Counted from the first letter of the stretch, positions 23,000-31,629 are shown. The stretch is 39,717 nt of DNA from an uncultured Pseudomonadota bacterium (GCA_903844155.1 CAIMSU010000028.1:1-39717); one strand, 5' to 3'. Program-made: numbers and translations. Notes: a model not told the origin generated them from the letters alone.

Positions 23000-24634
23000 G
23001 TGCCCCGCGATGCCGCCACCGTGCTCCGCCGATCTTTCTGCGTTGCGATGCTCGCCGGGTGCGCGAAGGCGCCCTCCGTGGACCCCAACGTGGACGCGCT
23101 CATCCGGGCCTCGATGGCGCTCCGGGGCATCCGACCGAGCGTTGCCGAGCTCGAGTCCGTGCACGCCACCCCGGACGCCGCTCCCGCCATCATCGCAACC
23201 TGGGCAAGCGGCGACGATTTCGGGTCGATGATCCGGGATCTACACTCGACGGACTACCTCGAGCGCTCCGAGGAGCATGAGCTTCCGGCCGCGGGCGTGC
23301 TCGCGAGCGTGGACCCGATCGCGATCAACCGGAGCGTGATGGAGGAGCCGCTGAAGCTGATCGAATGGGTGGTGCGAACGGGCCAGCCCTACAGCGCCAT
23401 CCTGACTACTGGCCAGATGCTCGCGGACCCGACGGTTGCGACGGTGTGGGGGCTGGACGTGCCTGCCGGGGCGAGTCATCCGCTCGATGACGACTGGGCG
23501 CTCACGACCTGGGGTGATGGGCGACCGGCAGCCGGCGTGCTTGTGAGCTCGGCGCTGTGGTTCCGGCACGCGTCCAACGGGCAGAACTACAACCGAAACC
23601 GGGCGAATGCGCTGGCGTCCGCGTTGGTCTGCAACGATTTTCTGGAGGCGGATGTGCCGCTCGACACGGTCGCCTTCACGGACGGGCGCGCCGTGGCCGA
23701 TGCCGTGCGCGAAAACCCGGCTTGCACGGCGTGTCATGCCGACCTCGACCCCATCGGCGCGGCGCTGTTCGCGTTCGTGAACACGCCCCCTGCATCGTCG
23801 ATCCAGGCTGCCTGTGATTCGGCGGCTTCAGGCGCGGGCGCAGCGTTCGGAGGTCCGGGCGCCATCGGGGAGGCGCGGTACGGGTGTTATCCACTTGCTT
23901 CCTACGATTCACGACGAACCGGGGACTACGTCGCCGCGGGTGACCCGGCGCCGGCCTGGTTCGGCACGCCGGTCAGCGGCCTCGCGGACCTGGGGGCGAC
24001 GATCGCGGCCGACCCGCGGTTTCCGACCTGCACTGCGCGCCGCTTTCTTGGGTGGTTCACCCATCGCAGCTACCTGGAGATCACCGACGCGGACGTGGCT
24101 GACCTCGCCGCGGACTTCACCGCGCACGACGACGATGCGGCGCGTCTGGCCGTTCAAGCAGTTTGGACGCCGGCGTTCCAGAACGCCGGCCCCCTGGCCA
24201 TCCGACCTGAGGAGCTGTCACGGCTCGTCTTTGATCTCACCGGTTACCGCTGGCTCGACGGCGACGTGGACCTGCTGGGCTCGGACACCGAGGGCTGGCG
24301 CCTGCTCGCGGGCGGCAGCGACAACTACTACGTCACCACCGTGCCGGACGATGCCAACGCGACGAAGGCGTTGGTCATGGCGCGGGTGGCCGAACAGGCG
24401 GCGATGTTTGTGGTTGAGAGCGACCTCGCGGCGCCAGTGGCGTCGCGCAAGCTGCTCACCCGTCCGGACGACGTGGACGGTCAGATCGCCGACTTGTCCC
24501 TTCGGATCCTCGGGGAGTTCGACCCGGACGTGCCCACGGCGCGCGCGCTCTACACGGGCGCGGGTGGTGGCGCGCACGGCTGGGAGGTGCTCATCGCCGC
24601 GATGCTGCAGGACGCGAGGGTGGCATGGTACTGA
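23000..24634 (+). CDS. Secreted lipoprotein with CXXCH motif (DUF1588/DUF1592-like)
   Basis: A 544-residue exported protein. The signal ends in an LAGC lipobox. The centre resembles the DUF1592/DUF1588 class of secreted proteins: RNRANALASALVCNDFLE followed by CTACHADLDPIGAALFAF, in which CTACH is a c-type haem attachment motif. Only one CXXCH is seen, so it may be a mono-haem protein or a non-haem relative. GTG 23000 is preferred; GTG 23021 is an alternative that starts just before the hydrophobic core. It overlaps the downstream DUF1501 gene by 10 nt, matching known pairs of such families in Planctomycetes and Myxococcota. Redox or polysaccharide-related roles have been proposed for relatives; the function is not settled. 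Confidence 0.75.
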   Translation: MPRDAATVLRRSFCVAMLAGCAKAPSVDPNVDALIRASMALRGIRPSVAELESVHATPDAAPAIIATWASGDDFGSMIRDLHSTDYLERSEEHELPAAGVLASVDPIAINRSVMEEPLKLIEWVVRTGQPYSAILTTGQMLADPTVATVWGLDVPAGASHPLDDDWALTTWGDGRPAAGVLVSSALWFRHASNGQNYNRNRANALASALVCNDFLEADVPLDTVAFTDGRAVADAVRENPACTACHADLDPIGAALFAFVNTPPASSIQAACDSAASGAGAAFGGPGAIGEARYGCYPLASYDSRRTGDYVAAGDPAPAWFGTPVSGLADLGATIAADPRFPTCTARRFLGWFTHRSYLEITDADVADLAADFTAHDDDAARLAVQAVWTPAFQNAGPLAIRPEELSRLVFDLTGYRWLDGDVDLLGSDTEGWRLLAGGSDNYYVTTVPDDANATKALVMARVAEQAAMFVVESDLAAPVASRKLLTRPDDVDGQIADLSLRILGEFDPDVPTARALYTGAGGGAHGWEVLIAAMLQDARVAWY

Positions 24635-25788
24635 AACGTCGGTCCTTCCTGCAGCTGGGACTGGCTGGCGCCGCGCTCGTGGGCCTTCCGCGATGTGGGC
24701 GGGGGGCCGGGAACCTCGTGCTCGTCGGCGCGCGCGGCGGCTGGGACCCTACTTTTGCGCTGGACCCGAAGGACCCCGCGGACGCCGATGGCCCCTCGCT
24801 CTACGCCAGCGGCGCGGCCGACGATCGGGACACCGTCGAGACCTTCTCGGGTATCCCGGTCGTCTGCAACCCCGTCCGGCGCCCGGCGGTCGCGGACTTT
24901 TTTGGCGCCTTCGCCGACCGCTGCGTCGTCGTCAACGGGATCGAGGTCGGCAGCATCGCACATGTGGAGTGTGTACGCCGGATGTGGACGGGTGGAGATG
25001 GGAGCGCGGCGTCGGACTCGCCGGACATCGCCGCGCTGGCGGGCGGACCGCTTCACCCCGGCGCCGTCGTCGGCTGCCTCGACCTCGGCCCTGGCGTGCT
25101 GTCCGGCTCGCTCGCCAGCACGGTCGTCCGGATCGGCCGGACCGGCCAGATCGCCAACCTGCTCGTGCCGACGCAGGGGTTCGCTGGCGACGAGGACGCC
25201 ATCGCCCGCTGGCGTGCGCGTCGGGCGGGGAACTCCCGGCTTCACACCTTGACCATCCCCGACTCGGACGCGGACGCCGCAACGCGGGCAGCCGGCCTCC
25301 CACTGGCGCTGGAGGGCCTCGCCCTGGACCCCACGGACCCGGTCGCCACCGCGGTCGCCGCGCTCTCGACGGGAACCTGCGGGTCGGTGTACGTCGACAC
25401 GCAGCAGCACTGGGACTCGCACACGGACAACAGCGTGCAGGATACCTGTTGGGAGGCGCTTTTTGTGCTGCTCACCTCGCTCGGGCAGGGGCTGCAGCGG
25501 CGCGGCTTGCTCGACAGCACGCTCGTTCTCGTCATTTCGGAGATGGGTCGCCCGCCGGCGAGGAATTCGGCGGGTGGGAAGGACCATTGGCCCGCAACGA
25601 GCGCGCTGCTGTTCGGGGGCGGGATCCGGGGTGCGCGGGTGCTTGGCGGAACCGATGCGAGCCTCGCCCCCCTCGACACCGGGGATGGCCCGATCACCCC
25701 GGCGAGCCTGCTCGCAGGCGTGCTTGACCATCTCGGCGGGGACGCCGCGACTGCGTTCGTCGGCACGTCGCCGCTCGGCCTCGACTGA
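24625..25788 (+). CDS. Tat-exported DUF1501-like protein
   Basis: A 387-residue protein with an N-terminal twin-arginine signal (KRRSFLQLGLAGAALVGL). The body is DUF1501-like, a branch of the alkaline phosphatase/sulfatase superfamily: NLVLVGARGGWDPTF near the start of the mature domain, HWDSHTDN in the middle, a VLVISEMGRPP segment and GGKDHWPATSALLFGGGI near the end are the usual family landmarks. It partners with the preceding CXXCH lipoprotein; ATG 24625 lies inside that gene, giving a 10-nt overlap and likely coupling. The function of the family is unknown; metal-dependent hydrolysis is plausible from the fold. It ends 3 nt before the convergent cyclase stop. Confidence 0.85.
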   Translation: MVLKRRSFLQLGLAGAALVGLPRCGRGAGNLVLVGARGGWDPTFALDPKDPADADGPSLYASGAADDRDTVETFSGIPVVCNPVRRPAVADFFGAFADRCVVVNGIEVGSIAHVECVRRMWTGGDGSAASDSPDIAALAGGPLHPGAVVGCLDLGPGVLSGSLASTVVRIGRTGQIANLLVPTQGFAGDEDAIARWRARRAGNSRLHTLTIPDSDADAATRAAGLPLALEGLALDPTDPVATAVAALSTGTCGSVYVDTQQHWDSHTDNSVQDTCWEALFVLLTSLGQGLQRRGLLDSTLVLVISEMGRPPARNSAGGKDHWPATSALLFGGGIRGARVLGGTDASLAPLDTGDGPITPASLLAGVLDHLGGDAATAFVGTSPLGLD

Positions 25789-25791
25789 GCG

Positions 25792-27783
25792 CTACTTGCT
25801 GGTGAGGGTGTGCGCGCCGTCCCAGGTTGGCGGCGGTGGATCCAGCAGGAAGGCACGCGAGCGCTCGATCATCGTCGTCGACGGGCCGTCGCCAGGCTGG
25901 GCATGGAGCGCCTCGGCAAAATATGCGATGGCGGCCGGAAAATCCCCTGCGCGATGCGCTGCGAGCCCGCGCGTGTACGCGGCCACGCACGTCCGGAGCG
26001 CCGGGGCTACGGCGCCCTTCTCGGCGAGCACCTCGTAGATCCCGACGGCGAGCGTCTTTCCCTTCACCCGCACCCGGTCCAGCTCGCGCGACTCGACTAC
26101 GTCGCCGGCGGCCAGAATGGTCGATTCGGCCACGATGATCCGGGTCCCGTACTCCTTGTTCACGCCCTCGAGCCGCGACGCGAGGTTCACGGCATCGCCG
26201 ATCACGGTGTAGTCCTGCCCCTCCTCGCCGCCGATGTTCCCGACGATCATCTCGCCGGTGTTGACGCCGATCCGCACGGACAGCACGTCCTTGCCCCAGC
26301 GCGCGCTGAGTACGCGCAGCGCTTCGAGGTGGTCGAGCGCGGCGAGGCAGGCGCCCGCTGCGTGGTCTGCGCGAGGAACGGGGGCGCCGAAGAACGCCAT
26401 CACGGCGTCGCCGAGGTACTTGTCGATGGTTCCGCCGCGCGCGACAACCCGGCGGGAGACCTCGGTAAAATACTGGTTCAGCAGGCCGACGACCGCCTCC
26501 GGCTCCAGGGACTCGGAGAGGGTTGTGAACCCGGCGAGGTCCGAGAACAGCACGGACAACTCCCGGCGTTGTCCGCCGAGCGCCTGCGCGTCTGGGTGAT
26601 TGAGCAGGTACTCGACGACCTCGGGGGCGAGGTACTTCTTGAAGGTCGCCCGGATTCGGAGGGACTCGCGGAGCCCCGCGGTCATGACGTTGAACTCGGC
26701 GAACAAACTTCCGATCTCGTCGCGCGAACGGACGACGAGCGTCGTATCGAGGTTGCCGGCGGCGACCCGACGGGCCGCGCCCTCCAGCTCCACGATCGGT
26801 CGCGTGAAGGACTCGGCCAGGAACGCCGCGAGTCCAACGGCGAGTCCGAGCGGCAGGAGCGCCGCGATCGCGAGCAGCAGCGGGACCTGGTTCAGCACCT
26901 CCAGCCCGACGTCGAGGTTTCGGGCGACAAGGACCGTTGCAATGGGGGTTTTGGCGTCGAGGCCCGTGAGCGGGAAGCGCTCCACCAGCCACGTCCCGCC
27001 CGCATCGCCGAGCTCGACGGGAGGCCCGTCGTCGGCCAGGGCGAGGCCGGCTTTGCGCACTGCGTCGGAGAGATCGCCGGCCACGACGCCGTCCGGGCCG
27101 ATGAGCGCGAGTTTTGTGCCGCGGTCCTCGAGCGCTACATCGCGGAGCAGGTCATCCGCGGTGATGCCCTGCACGAACGCGGATCCGGGAACGCCCGAAG
27201 GGGCGGTTGCGGCGGCAAAAACGACGAAGGCGCCGGACGCCGAAGCCGGCAACGGGGCCAGCGCGACGAGCGCCGGATCGTTCGCTCGCACGACCCCGGC
27301 TCCTCGAAAACCGCCGCCTGAATCGTACGCCTGAGCGACGGGCTTGAGCGGCATCGCGTCGCTGCCCCACGCAGCCTTGGACGTGCTCGCGTAGATGACG
27401 CGGCCCTTGTAGTCGGTGAGCGCGAAGAAGCTGCCGGAGCGCGTGCCGGTCCAGTCCCACTGCGCGTCGGCGAGGTCGTCATGCAGCGCCTTGCGACTCG
27501 CGAGGTCGTCCTCGGGACTCGCAAAACCGAAGTCGGACTTGTCCTTGTACTTGGTGACCTTGCGGACCACGTCCTGCACGTTGGAGAACGTGCTGGTGTC
27601 CTCGAACGCCTGATAGCGGAGCCGCAGCGAGGTGGCGAGCTGCGCCCGCGCCGTGAGGAAGGCCTGATTGGCGTCGGCCATCGCCCGGTTTCGCACGATC
27701 GCGACCGAGACCATGGACGTGAGCACGATGGCGACGAGCGCGAACGCGACGAAGAAGAGCGTGAGACGGCCGCGGATGGACAC
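25792..27783 (-). CDS. Membrane class III adenylate cyclase with periplasmic sensor and HAMP
   Basis: A 663-residue signalling enzyme making cyclic AMP. TM1 spans about 7-30, an extracytoplasmic sensor about 31-295 (helix then PAS/Cache-like strands, FFALTDYKGRVIYAS), TM2 about 297-323, HAMP about 324-375, and the catalytic domain about 405-590. Metal-binding Asp415 (FSDLAGFT) and Asp459 (YLGDAVMAFF) are present, adenine-specifying Lys455 and Asp530 (TVIGDAVN) favour ATP over GTP, and transition-state Asn533/Arg537 are in place. A TPR-like tail ends the protein. It is the last gene of a five-gene operon that also encodes a cupredoxin-like protein and an outer-membrane barrel, which suggests the sensor reads an envelope signal connected with them. 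All catalytic residues are intact. Confidence 0.93.
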   Translation of the reverse strand: MSIRGRLTLFFVAFALVAIVLTSMVSVAIVRNRAMADANQAFLTARAQLATSLRLRYQAFEDTSTFSNVQDVVRKVTKYKDKSDFGFASPEDDLASRKALHDDLADAQWDWTGTRSGSFFALTDYKGRVIYASTSKAAWGSDAMPLKPVAQAYDSGGGFRGAGVVRANDPALVALAPLPASASGAFVVFAAATAPSGVPGSAFVQGITADDLLRDVALEDRGTKLALIGPDGVVAGDLSDAVRKAGLALADDGPPVELGDAGGTWLVERFPLTGLDAKTPIATVLVARNLDVGLEVLNQVPLLLAIAALLPLGLAVGLAAFLAESFTRPIVELEGAARRVAAGNLDTTLVVRSRDEIGSLFAEFNVMTAGLRESLRIRATFKKYLAPEVVEYLLNHPDAQALGGQRRELSVLFSDLAGFTTLSESLEPEAVVGLLNQYFTEVSRRVVARGGTIDKYLGDAVMAFFGAPVPRADHAAGACLAALDHLEALRVLSARWGKDVLSVRIGVNTGEMIVGNIGGEEGQDYTVIGDAVNLASRLEGVNKEYGTRIIVAESTILAAGDVVESRELDRVRVKGKTLAVGIYEVLAEKGAVAPALRTCVAAYTRGLAAHRAGDFPAAIAYFAEALHAQPGDGPSTTMIERSRAFLLDPPPPTWDGAHTLTSK

Positions 27784-27815
27784 GGGCGGGGCTTATCGCT
27801 TTTGCGGGGCGCCCC

Positions 27816-28496
27816 TCACGGCACGTAATGCCGCGTCGCATAATCCTGCCCGTCCCACGTCTTGTGGTCAAACGAAAACCGGGTTCGATCCAGGGATAGC
27901 GAGACGGTCGCCACGGCACCCGCGGTGACGGTGACCTTGGCGTGCGCCGGCACCACCGCGCTGCGGTCGTACGCGAACAGATCCCAGGTTCCCGGCGCGA
28001 TGTTGCTGAGGGTGAACGTGCCGTCCGCGTTGGTGTAGGCAAAGCTGGCGTTCGGCAGGACGAGGATGGTCGCCGCCATGTCCGGGTGGATGTCGCAGTA
28101 GATCTCGACGGGCCCGGGGGTGTCGAAGACGTGCGATGGCGGGTCACCGTGGCCGGCGCGGTATTGCCCGAGGTTGAAGCGCGGATCCAGCGAGAAGACG
28201 TTGTGGCTGGTGTCGTAGTCGAGGTTCGGGAAGTCGACGGTCTGGCCGACGACGACGGGGAGCAAGGGCGGGACGTACTTGTGATTCTGCTGGGATAGCG
28301 CCGCGTGTGCCTTGGGCGCCGGCGCGGAGAAGCCAACGAGGTAGGCGACGATTCCAGTCGCTGAGGCAGCGGGCTGGCCCTTTTCGGTGACAGAGACGCG
28401 CCCAGAGACGGCGCCCGTTGTTCCCGTCGCCATCGCGGGGGCGCAGCCGGGTGCGAGCAACAGCAGGAACAAGGCCCTCAAAACTCCACCCCCCAC
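27816..28496 (-). CDS. Cupredoxin-like secreted protein with carboxypeptidase-regulatory-like domain
   Basis: A 226-residue exported protein. A hydrophobic signal (VLRALFLLLLAPGCAPA) has a possible lipobox at APGC. A plastocyanin-like domain holds a full type-1 copper ligand set: His98 (TSHNVFS), Cys134, His137 and Met140 (YCDIHPDM). After it comes a carboxypeptidase-regulatory-like beta-sandwich (FAYTNADGTFTLSNIAPGTWDL). Probable role: periplasmic copper-binding electron carrier or copper buffer. GTG 28496 overlaps the preceding gene by 19 nt; a TTG at 28481 that overlaps the preceding stop (TTGA) is an equally good start and would only shorten the signal. It belongs to the five-gene operon and is 32 nt before the cyclase. 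Confidence 0.85.
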   Translation of the reverse strand: MGGGVLRALFLLLLAPGCAPAMATGTTGAVSGRVSVTEKGQPAASATGIVAYLVGFSAPAPKAHAALSQQNHKYVPPLLPVVVGQTVDFPNLDYDTSHNVFSLDPRFNLGQYRAGHGDPPSHVFDTPGPVEIYCDIHPDMAATILVLPNASFAYTNADGTFTLSNIAPGTWDLFAYDRSAVVPAHAKVTVTAGAVATVSLSLDRTRFSFDHKTWDGQDYATRHYVP

Positions 28497-29200
28497 GAGA
28501 GCCGGAGCACCACCGGGTCCGGGATCGTCGCGCCCAGACCCACGACCCCGCCGGCCGTGATCCAGAACGGGCCGGTGGTGTAGCTCACGTCCGGCCCGGC
28601 CGCGAGGTTCGGGCCGGAGAACGTCGGGATGAACGCGGCGTTTGCGTCCACTTCCCCGCCGAGGCGCAGCGCCCCCGTCACGTTGCCGGTCACCCCGATC
28701 CCGAGGTGGCCGGTGGATTCGCTCGCATCGCTCACGAAGTTCCCGCCGAGGTCGACCGCGGTGTGGACCTTCTTGGAAAGGTCAGTACCAACGGTCAAGT
28801 CCGCCTGGGCCTCCAGCGTCTGGCTCGAGTTCCCGCGCTCCACCGCGAGGCGGAGCATCGGGATGGGCCGCATCACTACCGGCGGCCCGGGCTTGGCCAT
28901 TCGCCAGCGAACCTCGGCGGCGTACCGGGTGAAGTTCGTCGTGCCGTCCGCGTGGGAGTAGCTGACCTCCAGCGGCAGTACCAGCTCGACCTGGTCGGAC
29001 AGGCCGAACGCGACACCCCACCACGACGCCGTCTCGTCGCCGGCACCGCCCGGGGTGCCGATCTTGTCCGTGATCTTGCTCTCCAGCTCCGCGCCGCGGG
29101 CGGGGAGCACCTCGTTGTCCAGCACCTGGTTGAACGGTTCGCGCCCCGCGAACGCGAGCGACGGGAAGAAGAGGGGGAGGGCGACGATGAAGCGCTTCAT
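28478..29200 (-). CDS. Outer-membrane beta-barrel-like protein
   Basis: A 240-residue exported protein. A classical cleavable signal (MKRFIVALPLFFPSLAFA) is followed by alternating hydrophobic strands with aromatic girdle residues (VELVLPLEVSYSH, FTRYAAEVRWRMA, PFWITAGGVVGLG) and the C-terminal aromatic residue expected for BAM-dependent barrels (LRLSWGVEF, ending in Phe). The length fits a small 8-10 strand barrel or a transporter-associated barrel-like protein. Its function is not recognised. It starts 17 nt after the upstream lipoprotein stop and overlaps the cupredoxin-like gene, so the three envelope proteins are probably made together. Confidence 0.8.
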   Translation of the reverse strand: MKRFIVALPLFFPSLAFAGREPFNQVLDNEVLPARGAELESKITDKIGTPGGAGDETASWWGVAFGLSDQVELVLPLEVSYSHADGTTNFTRYAAEVRWRMAKPGPPVVMRPIPMLRLAVERGNSSQTLEAQADLTVGTDLSKKVHTAVDLGGNFVSDASESTGHLGIGVTGNVTGALRLGGEVDANAAFIPTFSGPNLAAGPDVSYTTGPFWITAGGVVGLGATIPDPVVLRLSWGVEF

Positions 29201-29217
29201 GCGCGCATCATACAGGA

Positions 29218-30093
29218 TTACTGCAGCGGGGTGACCTGCACGAAGCGCAACGCAAATTGCCCGGCCATGAACGCCGAGAGGGACTGGCTGACGCCCGTGA
29301 ACTGCGTCGCGTCCGCGCTCTTCATCCCGGCGATGCCGACGACGTAGTTTCCTTCACGCAGGAACGCGTCCCCGCCGACCTCCACGGTCTCCTGTTGCGG
29401 GCCGTGGGTGTAGTCGTAGGTGGAGACGATGTCGTTCGGGAGGTTGTCGAACGTGAGCTTGGAGCGCTGCACGTCGTAGACGGCCACCAGCACGTTGTCG
29501 TACCCCTGGCCCGAAAGGTCGGCCGTGAAGCTGCCCTGGGCCGGCAGGGTGGTCGGCACGGTGACTTCGGGCGCTGCCGGGGTCTTGACCGCAATTCGCA
29601 CGTCGCTGCCGTCAATCTGGGTTGTCACTGTCGCGTCGTCGTTCGCGGCGTAGGCGATGCCGTCGTCCGCGGTCACCAGGTATTTGCCCTTGGTTTCGTC
29701 GGTGAGGGCGAAATTGCCCGGGTTGTCGTTGGACTTGAAGTCGACGACGGCGCCTTCGACCGGGGCGGTGTCGAGCGCCGACGGGTCCGCGATGTAGGCG
29801 AGGAAGACCGAGCACGCGGCGGTGTACTGGAGGAAATCGGAGCCTGAACCGGATAGATCGACGCCCGCAGCCACGTCCAGCCCGACGTATACGCCCTGGG
29901 CGACCGCGGGGGAGACGAGCTCGGCCACGTCGTTGAGCCTACCGCAGCCCGTCGCCAGGCAAAGGGCTGAGATCGCGGCAACGGCGCAGGGGCGAAGCGG
30001 CGTTCCACAGCGAGGCCTGGATCGGCGAGGGCTTGCGCGAGCCGCCCAAAGGAGCCTCGAAAACCCGCTGCTGACCGACCGTGGCGCGTGCAT
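29218..30093 (-). CDS. Hypothetical lipoprotein in the radical SAM operon
   Basis: A 291-residue exported protein of unknown function. The signal is unusual: about 36 Arg/Ser-rich residues precede the hydrophobic core and the LATGC lipobox. ATG 30093 is nonetheless supported by GGGAG 6 nt upstream and by the 15-nt gap after the radical SAM stop; no in-frame ATG, GTG or TTG lies nearer the core. The mature part looks beta-rich (VVDFKSNDNPGNFAL, GSFTADLSGQGYDNVLVAVYD) like a two-domain beta-sandwich. Without a homologue I cannot assign a role; context places it in the envelope with the barrel and cupredoxin-like proteins. Confidence 0.75.
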   Translation of the reverse strand: MHAPRSVSSGFSRLLWAARASPRRSRPRCGTPLRPCAVAAISALCLATGCGRLNDVAELVSPAVAQGVYVGLDVAAGVDLSGSGSDFLQYTAACSVFLAYIADPSALDTAPVEGAVVDFKSNDNPGNFALTDETKGKYLVTADDGIAYAANDDATVTTQIDGSDVRIAVKTPAAPEVTVPTTLPAQGSFTADLSGQGYDNVLVAVYDVQRSKLTFDNLPNDIVSTYDYTHGPQQETVEVGGDAFLREGNYVVGIAGMKSADATQFTGVSQSLSAFMAGQFALRFVQVTPLQ

Positions 30094-30108
30094 TGCCGGC
30101 TCCCGGGC

Positions 30109-31629
30109 CTACTTGGAGTAGATGGGCGAGGGGCCGCTGGACGCGCTGATGACGCTGTGCGTCGAGCCATGGTCGTTGCGGATGTTCGCGAAATCCTTGA
30201 TGTGACCCCAGATCGCCGTGACGCCGCGACGCATGTAGTCGAGATCGTCCATGGAACGGAGATTGCGAAGCTGGTTCGCCAGGAACTTCGGGTGCATGTA
30301 GAGCTTGTAGAACTGCCCGGCCATCTGCACGACCTCGTCCTGATCCATGTCCGTGAGCACGCACGCGGGCTCGGTCATGTCGTAGCGCTCGTAGTCCTTC
30401 GGATCGAAGCGGATCCACCCGTTCTTCTGGCACAAGTCGAAGAGGGGCGTGCCCGGGTAGGGCATCACCACCGTGGCCTGCAGGTGCGCCGCATAGCCGT
30501 TGTACATGAGGTATTTCGCAAGGGACAACGTCTCGTAAGCGTCCTCCTTCGTCTCCCACGGGTAGCCTACCATCATGGTGAGGTGGGGCTGGAGCCCGGC
30601 CGCGCTTGCCATCTTGCAGCCCTCGATGATCTGCTCGCGGGTGAGCGACTTGTCGAGGATGTCGATGGTGCGCTCCGACGCCGACTCGATGCCGAGGATG
30701 AGCTTGCGGAAGCCCGCCTTCTTCATGAGGTGGACGTTCTTCTCGGTGAAGTAGTCGAACCGGAAGTTGCAGTCGAAGACGACCTTTTCGTTGATCTTGC
30801 GGTCGATCATCTCGCCGCAGAGGCGGGTGAGCCAGTTACCCGTCGGGAGCGCGCCGGTGTCGTCGAAAATGTTCTTTGCACCGTGCTTGTTGATGAGCAT
30901 CTCCATCTCGGTGGCGAGACGCTCGGGGGAGACGGTGCGGAACTTCGGGTAGGTGACGGTCCAGGAGCAGAACGTGCAGCGGCCGTAGGGGCAGTCGCGC
31001 CCGGCCATCGTCCACATGAACGGCAGGCGGTACTTCCATTTTTCGAAGTAGAGGTGGGCGTTGGTGAGGTCGCGGTCCCAGAACGGCAGGTCTTCGAGGT
31101 TGCCCTCCTGGTTGTAGGCGCCGCTGCTGACGGGCGTGCCGTCGACCTTTCGCCAGATGCCGCCGCCAAGCGCCGTTCCCTTCGTGATCCAGTCCACCAG
31201 GCTCTGGAGCGAGAAGTCGTAATCGCCGCCCTGGATGCAGTAGTCCGTCTGGGATTGTTCCAGGGTCTCGGCCGGATTTCCGGCGATGTGGTCGCCGAAC
31301 AGCACGCACTGCGCGCCGGGGACCAGCTCCTTGATCCGGTCGACGATCTTCCAGTGCATCTTGATGACCGGGGACTTGGTCTCCATCGCCACCAGCTCGG
31401 GCTTGAAGTCTTCGAGCAACCGCTCGAATTGCGCCTGGTTCTTCTGCTCGGCGATGCAGTCGACCCAGCGCACGTCGTGGCCGTTGGACTGCAGGAGCGT
31501 CGCCGCGGAGGCGGGAATGCAGGGGTAGAGGTAACTTGGCTCATGGAACCACTGGAACTGGCGGTTCTGTGTGAGCATCGGGCTGCCCTTTGCGGACTCG
31601 ATGGGCGGGTAGCAGACGAGGACACGCAT
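30109..31629 (-). CDS. B12-binding-domain radical SAM protein
   Basis: A 506-residue iron-sulfur enzyme. Residues 1-150 form a Rossmann-like cobalamin-binding domain (LVCYPPIES..., VRWVDCIAEQ, LVAMETKSP, CVLFGDHIAG) lacking the DxHxxG lower-ligand His, as usual in this superfamily. The radical SAM barrel follows, with Cys213, Cys218 and Cys221 in the motif RDCPYGRCTFCSW, i.e. CX4CX2C rather than the canonical CX3CX2C; LILGIESASERTID and MMVGYPWE are normal SAM-binding features. Such enzymes methylate or rearrange unactivated carbons, or make ring closures. ATG 31629 has GGAG 6 nt upstream. It is the first gene of a five-gene operon; the substrate is unknown but may be a peptide, lipid or porphyrin. 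Confidence 0.92.
   Translation of the reverse strand: MRVLVCYPPIESAKGSPMLTQNRQFQWFHEPSYLYPCIPASAATLLQSNGHDVRWVDCIAEQKNQAQFERLLEDFKPELVAMETKSPVIKMHWKIVDRIKELVPGAQCVLFGDHIAGNPAETLEQSQTDYCIQGGDYDFSLQSLVDWITKGTALGGGIWRKVDGTPVSSGAYNQEGNLEDLPFWDRDLTNAHLYFEKWKYRLPFMWTMAGRDCPYGRCTFCSWTVTYPKFRTVSPERLATEMEMLINKHGAKNIFDDTGALPTGNWLTRLCGEMIDRKINEKVVFDCNFRFDYFTEKNVHLMKKAGFRKLILGIESASERTIDILDKSLTREQIIEGCKMASAAGLQPHLTMMVGYPWETKEDAYETLSLAKYLMYNGYAAHLQATVVMPYPGTPLFDLCQKNGWIRFDPKDYERYDMTEPACVLTDMDQDEVVQMAGQFYKLYMHPKFLANQLRNLRSMDDLDYMRRGVTAIWGHIKDFANIRNDHGSTHSVISASSGPSPIYSK

Follow-up and report, generated by a model that had tools for sequence, protein, structure and literature searches.

An outer-membrane barrel, a cupredoxin and a sensor cyclase form a conserved bacterial gene unit

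LuxP-LuxQ combines a periplasmic accessory protein with a sensor, PcoA and PcoB bring together a periplasmic copper protein and a barrel in copper resistance, and Cyc2 and rusticyanin belong to an iron-oxidation chain with an outer-membrane barrel and a periplasmic cupredoxin. To our knowledge, the signal is not known for the majority of class III cyclases and Cache sensors, and we know of no role assigned in most genomes to the cupredoxins annotated as 'methylamine utilization protein'. The locus studied here encodes a barrel, a cupredoxin and a cyclase with a periplasmic Cache sensor. It resembles LuxP-LuxQ and the VtrA/VtrC co-component systems (PMC9214523) in that a small periplasmic protein, the presumed input, is encoded beside a membrane transducer with a periplasmic sensor; here, however, the accessory protein is a predicted copper-binding cupredoxin, the set includes an outer-membrane barrel, and a class III cyclase, a Ser/Thr kinase or a SpoIIE phosphatase serves as output. 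PA14_37690 of Pseudomonas aeruginosa is likewise a second-messenger enzyme with a cache-like domain in the periplasm and a copper link, but its sensor itself binds copper, its enzyme acts in c-di-GMP signalling and no cupredoxin is mentioned in its description (PMC13277305). The 'methylamine utilization protein' loci of Burkholderiales, known as annotation names, hold a homologous cupredoxin (HMM E about 1e-39), a dCache_3-HAMP transducer directly downstream and an upstream DUF3034 protein that, as a barrel would, ends in an aromatic residue; they differ in cache family and output and include a truncated haemoglobin gene. PcoA/PcoB also pair a periplasmic copper protein with a barrel, the likeness to PcoB being one of fold only, whereas the present module has a cyclase and no multicopper oxidase. 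Cyc2/rusticyanin share the combination of outer-membrane barrel and periplasmic cupredoxin, and relatives of our cupredoxin adjoin monohaem barrel-like proteins; in contrast, our barrel has no haem motif and is partnered by a cyclase instead of a respiratory complex. We found no description of a cupredoxin-cyclase or cupredoxin-Cache module in the open-access literature, a scope that makes this a weak absence.

The window, a 39,717-nt stretch of DNA from an uncultured Pseudomonadota bacterium, belongs to an 8.1 Mb assembly of 375 contigs, in which class III cyclases have 15 matches. Five minus-strand ORFs at 25792-31629 were confirmed with the spacing given in a preliminary description, whose gene identities and strand also proved right. 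A B12-binding radical SAM protein gene (30109-31629; CX4CX2C motif) and a lipoprotein gene (29218-30093; LATGC lipobox) are neighbours of the module, which consists of the outer-membrane beta-barrel gene (OMB, 28478-29200), the secreted cupredoxin gene (CUP, 27816-28496; amicyanin-type loop C-x-x-H-P-x-M, then a CarboxypepD_reg/fn3_3-like domain) and the cyclase gene (CYC, 25792-27783; TM, periplasmic dCache, TM, HAMP, class III cyclase and TPR). The first two junctions measure 15 nt and 17 nt, the third is an overlap and the last measures 32 nt; the cupredoxin starts with GTG at 28496, and an alternative TTG would put its start at 28472 and make the third junction a gap of 5 nt. In Pfam/NCBIfam searches, the radical SAM protein matched Radical_SAM (3.3e-16) with B12-binding below the cut-off, the cyclase matched Guanylate_cyc (2.9e-24), HAMP (2.8e-12) and TPR, and the C-terminal half of the cupredoxin matched CarboxypepD_reg/fn3_3; the lipoprotein and the barrel had no significant match. 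No promoter-like site was found in the stretch, and its two terminator-like matches, fewer than in shuffled sequence, are both intragenic. A single transcript of the five genes is plausible in the window's genome. On the far side of the cyclase gene, a DUF1501 protein gene (24625-25788) converges on it, the two stop codons lying 3 nt apart.

The preliminary description had offered, as one reading, a pathway of all five genes, in which the radical SAM enzyme would modify an envelope component and the cyclase would report its state. The radical SAM gene is old and conserved: among the 63 genomes searched in the order, 34 have the orthologue (61-96% identity), every one of the five genomes of the genus among them. 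Divergent FolB and RibD genes frequently lie upstream of it, and its CX4CX2C cluster motif (GRDCPY[GW][KR]CTFC type) is invariant in 30/30 orthologues. No curated family covers the protein, which falls far under every curated family cut-off, those of the NCBIfam entries HpnJ (141.9 bits, cut-off 577.6) and BchE (96.7 bits, cut-off 481.35) included. In 5/5 genomes of the genus, whether or not they have the module, the radical SAM gene is followed by the gene for the genus-specific lipoprotein, an arrangement absent from the other loci inspected. Conservation of the five-gene order, which speaks for a common pathway, extends to the window and one congener (G029, matching the Lake Baikal locus L003); a peptide-pattern search for close relatives returned a single locus, in a same-genus Lake Baikal 'Myxococcales' MAG that is the nearest named relative, and the three other genomes of the genus have no barrel, cupredoxin or cyclase gene at this place. 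Against such a pathway, the orthologue is missing from 22 of the 24 sensor-carrying genomes of the phylum (the exceptions being the window's and G029), 32 of the 34 order genomes with the radical SAM gene have it without the module, and none of the other module loci inspected has it as a neighbour. On this distribution we reject a single pathway of radical SAM enzyme and cyclase, and we consider the reporting scheme extremely improbable. What stands of the proposed association is its barrel, cupredoxin and cyclase part. The radical SAM gene co-occurs with the other four in just two genomes, both of the same genus, which comes close to the complete lack of co-occurrence that the preliminary description had named as counter-evidence. 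The five genes are probably two adjoining units, the radical SAM and lipoprotein genes forming an independent upstream one.

The barrel, cupredoxin and cyclase genes are a conserved bacterial unit. They occur together in three of the 63 genomes searched in the order (the window's, G029 and G023), and G023 belongs to another family and has no radical SAM gene. A search with nothing but the sensor half of the window's cyclase obtained matches in 14/379 phylum genomes, all of which were also in the cupredoxin search list; the two genes are adjacent in 13, the exception (G139) having its barrel-cupredoxin pair on a different contig from the cyclase. A sensor profile retrieved 25 matches from 24 genomes and 11 families among the same 379, and 24 of these matches lie at most 1.8 kb from a cupredoxin gene, the conserved genetic linkage by which accessory-protein-plus-Cache systems are recognised. 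Because this profile was built from 19 sequences, mostly of cupredoxin-linked loci, and only six candidates were scored per genome, the search with the window's sensor alone is the test with less bias. Chance adjacency of sensor and cupredoxin was discarded, about 0.0015 being expected per sensor match by a rough estimate. Linkage would, however, also be expected if the cupredoxin and barrel were mere targets or electron carriers under cyclase control. The cyclase-linked cupredoxins form two groups. Clade 1 usually comes with the barrel (window, L003, L050, L107-L111, L114 and L117; the set is split in L112/L113, and L118 ends at a contig edge, many of the genomes compared being fragmented assemblies), with intergenic gaps of -4 to about 170 nt, mostly below 65, gene calls outside the window coming from a simple custom script. 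Clade 2 comprises eight loci without this barrel (L119, L120, L122-L127), three of which have an alginate-export-type barrel nearby. At L121, barrel and cupredoxin adjoin a kinase without recognisable sensor.

All four ligands of the His-Cys-His-Met set, which the preliminary description had called intact, were located in the window's cupredoxin (H 28205-28203, C 28097-28095, H 28088-28086 and M 28079-28077). They are invariant in 24/24 cupredoxins of the module set, and the CxxHxxM copper loop was observed in 52/52 relatives examined. By ligand pattern, the protein fits a predicted type 1 copper cupredoxin with an amicyanin-like loop; the closest solved copper domain is 5fc9. The cupredoxin tree groups strongly by partner type, with 16 changes against 35.5 in shuffles, relatedness alone accounting for some of this clustering. 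Nothing on plasmids exceeded 60% identity to the window's cupredoxin.

The part of the cyclase linked to the cupredoxin is its sensor domain (26887-27690, minus strand; residues 32-299), which in an AF2 model (pLDDT 82.7) has the dCache fold, between two TM helices and after a long N-terminal helix. The model aligns with the tandem Cache domains of Mlp24 and PscC over 224-234 residues (Z 13-14, rmsd 3.3-3.6), its dCache matches being Cache domains of chemoreceptors and kinases. On this modelling, the periplasmic sensor is a dCache domain; no Pfam Cache profile match was reported for the window's cyclase at E 0.1, a search in which HMMER filters drop weak matches. The best conserved sensor stretch in clade 1, at about residues 55-113, would be membrane-distal as judged from secondary structure only. 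One alternative is that the dCache itself senses copper or another small ligand, a role proposed for the CHASE4 domain of the cache-like transducer PA14_37690, which binds copper in vitro (PMC13277305), with the cupredoxin as a copper buffer or delivery protein. The sensors contain 1-11 His, 0-9 Met and 0-2 Cys per sequence, and the window's copy has one His, two Met and no Cys; the R-x-W-Y part of the amino-acid-binding dCache motif is absent in 20/20 sensor sequences. This composition speaks against direct ligand sensing, which we judge improbable, and the scarcity of His, Met and Cys in the sensor makes the cupredoxin the likely metal site.

The catalytic domain (26053-26562, minus strand) is of the adenylyl type, with metal-binding Asp415/Asp459, Lys455, Thr526, Asn533 and Arg537. 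This D, D, K, T, N, R set is complete in 12/12 clade 1 sequences, and with the Lys/Thr pair of adenylyl cyclases the clade 1 domains are predicted to make cAMP. Clade 2 cyclases (L119, L120, L122, L124-L127) have Glu/Gln and Gly/Ala at the purine-specifying sites; since this resembles the pair found in Cya2, a guanylyl cyclase with E-G (PMC4215837), they may be guanylyl rather than adenylyl cyclases and make cGMP.

Linkage to the cupredoxin is kept while the output changes, one sensor family being found fused to class III cyclases, Ser/Thr kinases and SpoIIE-type phosphatases. Sensor HMMs placed the domain at the C-terminus of Ser/Thr kinases adjoining barrel-cupredoxin pairs (L115, 5e-52; L116, 1e-45). 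In HAMP-SpoIIE proteins encoded close to cupredoxins it is N-terminal (L131, 7e-17; L142, L135, L133, L128 and L130 weaker), the SpoIIE domain being Pfam-confirmed in L131 and L133 and assigned by sequence cluster in L142, L135, L128 and L130. More distant cupredoxins lie beside dCache_1 histidine kinases and NtrC-like regulators (L053, L134, L136, L138), a CHASE4/dCache_3-like hybrid kinase (L143), a GGDEF-EAL protein (L140) or, in others, respiratory genes. On Burkholderiales plasmids, an EAL gene comes right after the cupredoxin in 6/7 annotated loci (two matches in unannotated records being left out) and a cache-domain fragment in the seventh, and DUF3034 and truncated haemoglobin genes usually precede the cupredoxin, which is annotated 'methylamine utilization protein'. 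The order DUF3034, truncated haemoglobin, cupredoxin and EAL is conserved in the betaproteobacterial plasmid loci L147, L175, L176, L177 and L178. Both betaproteobacterial transducers tested contain dCache_3, HAMP, GGDEF and EAL. The sensor HMMs did not detect these EAL sensors, which makes the loci a parallel case with another sensor family; the barrel HMM did not match DUF3034.

In clade 1 (12 genomes), pairwise cupredoxin divergence was observed to follow that of the sensor (r 0.90) more closely than that of the catalytic domain to which the sensor is fused (0.78), with partial correlations of 0.73 and -0.14, respectively; in clade 2 (7 sequences), the cupredoxin-sensor partial correlation is weak (0.30). 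Such co-divergence is the pattern expected from contact, although fast rates that periplasmic domains share for other reasons could contribute, and the set is small.

We propose that the barrel, cupredoxin and cyclase make up a signalling unit from envelope to cytoplasm, with the cupredoxin as the periplasmic input. Its copper, through occupancy or redox state, would decide whether it docks on the dCache sensor, at the part farthest from the membrane, and this contact would alter cyclase output, cAMP in the window's case, via the HAMP linker; the barrel would pass the cupredoxin's signal (copper or an electron donor/acceptor) over the outer membrane or anchor the cupredoxin there. Linkage, conserved copper ligands, the predicted dCache fold, intact catalytic residues, output swapping and co-divergence are computed results; from them we infer that the proteins dock directly, what the signal is, what the barrel does and in which direction regulation runs, and we give the proposal about an even chance. 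Against it stand the clade 2 loci, all eight of which do without this barrel, and several cupredoxin relatives that serve respiratory chains and adjoin no recognised transducer.

The main rival takes the cupredoxin and barrel as an electron or copper conduit, for extracellular electron transfer or copper handling, which the co-transcribed cyclase regulates while sensing something else and without docking. The barrel, with 12 predicted strands (AF2 pLDDT 81.4), has Foldseek fold matches to FapF, a COG4313 channel, NanC, KdgM and PcoB; the presence of the copper barrel PcoB (E 2.8e-6, ranked under FapF and others) favours a conduit. The most conserved stretch of the barrel is its mature N-terminus, AGRxPFxxxxDxEVLPxRGxELE (residues 18-38; conservation 0.78 against 0.55). 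At ten loci (L051, L053, L055, L056, L132, L134, L136, L138, L139 and L144), the cupredoxin has monohaem neighbours that carry AIPAFARKYxTSCxTCH close to the N-terminus and have an aromatic, barrel-like C-terminus; they resemble Cyc2 fused cytochrome-porins, and several of their genes adjoin Rieske, cytochrome b or multihaem cytochrome genes; these loci are candidate electron-uptake chains. A Cyc2-like barrel query had no match on plasmids. At L131, L133, L135 and L142, a pentahaem cytochrome (C554/C7-like) is encoded between the cupredoxin and the dCache-HAMP-SpoIIE gene, and MauG-type dihaem peroxidases are encoded nearby; together they may be a redox-sensing set. Both the company of respiratory genes and this interposed cytochrome are in keeping with a conduit. 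However, a cytochrome is missing from the core module, the sensor family occurs essentially nowhere apart from the cupredoxin while the output domain varies, and cupredoxin divergence follows the sensor and not the catalytic domain. We hold a conduit without docking to be rather unlikely.

The pairing of related cupredoxins with several kinds of signalling enzyme suggests that they report copper or redox state in a common, as yet undescribed way. In its broadest form, which we advance tentatively, a periplasmic cupredoxin fed via the barrel would be an obligate co-receptor for dCache sensors, and this kind of input would have been connected in evolution to four or more outputs (cyclases for cAMP or probably cGMP, Ser/Thr kinases, PP2C-type phosphatases and c-di-GMP enzymes) as a general redox or copper receptor. 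The conserved pairing with a swapped output gives both the cupredoxin and the Cache sensor a testable role, and a concrete assay would be cAMP production as a function of the copper or redox state of the cupredoxin. If true, cupredoxins would be not only electron carriers but also receptors, with a copper protein as signalling input.
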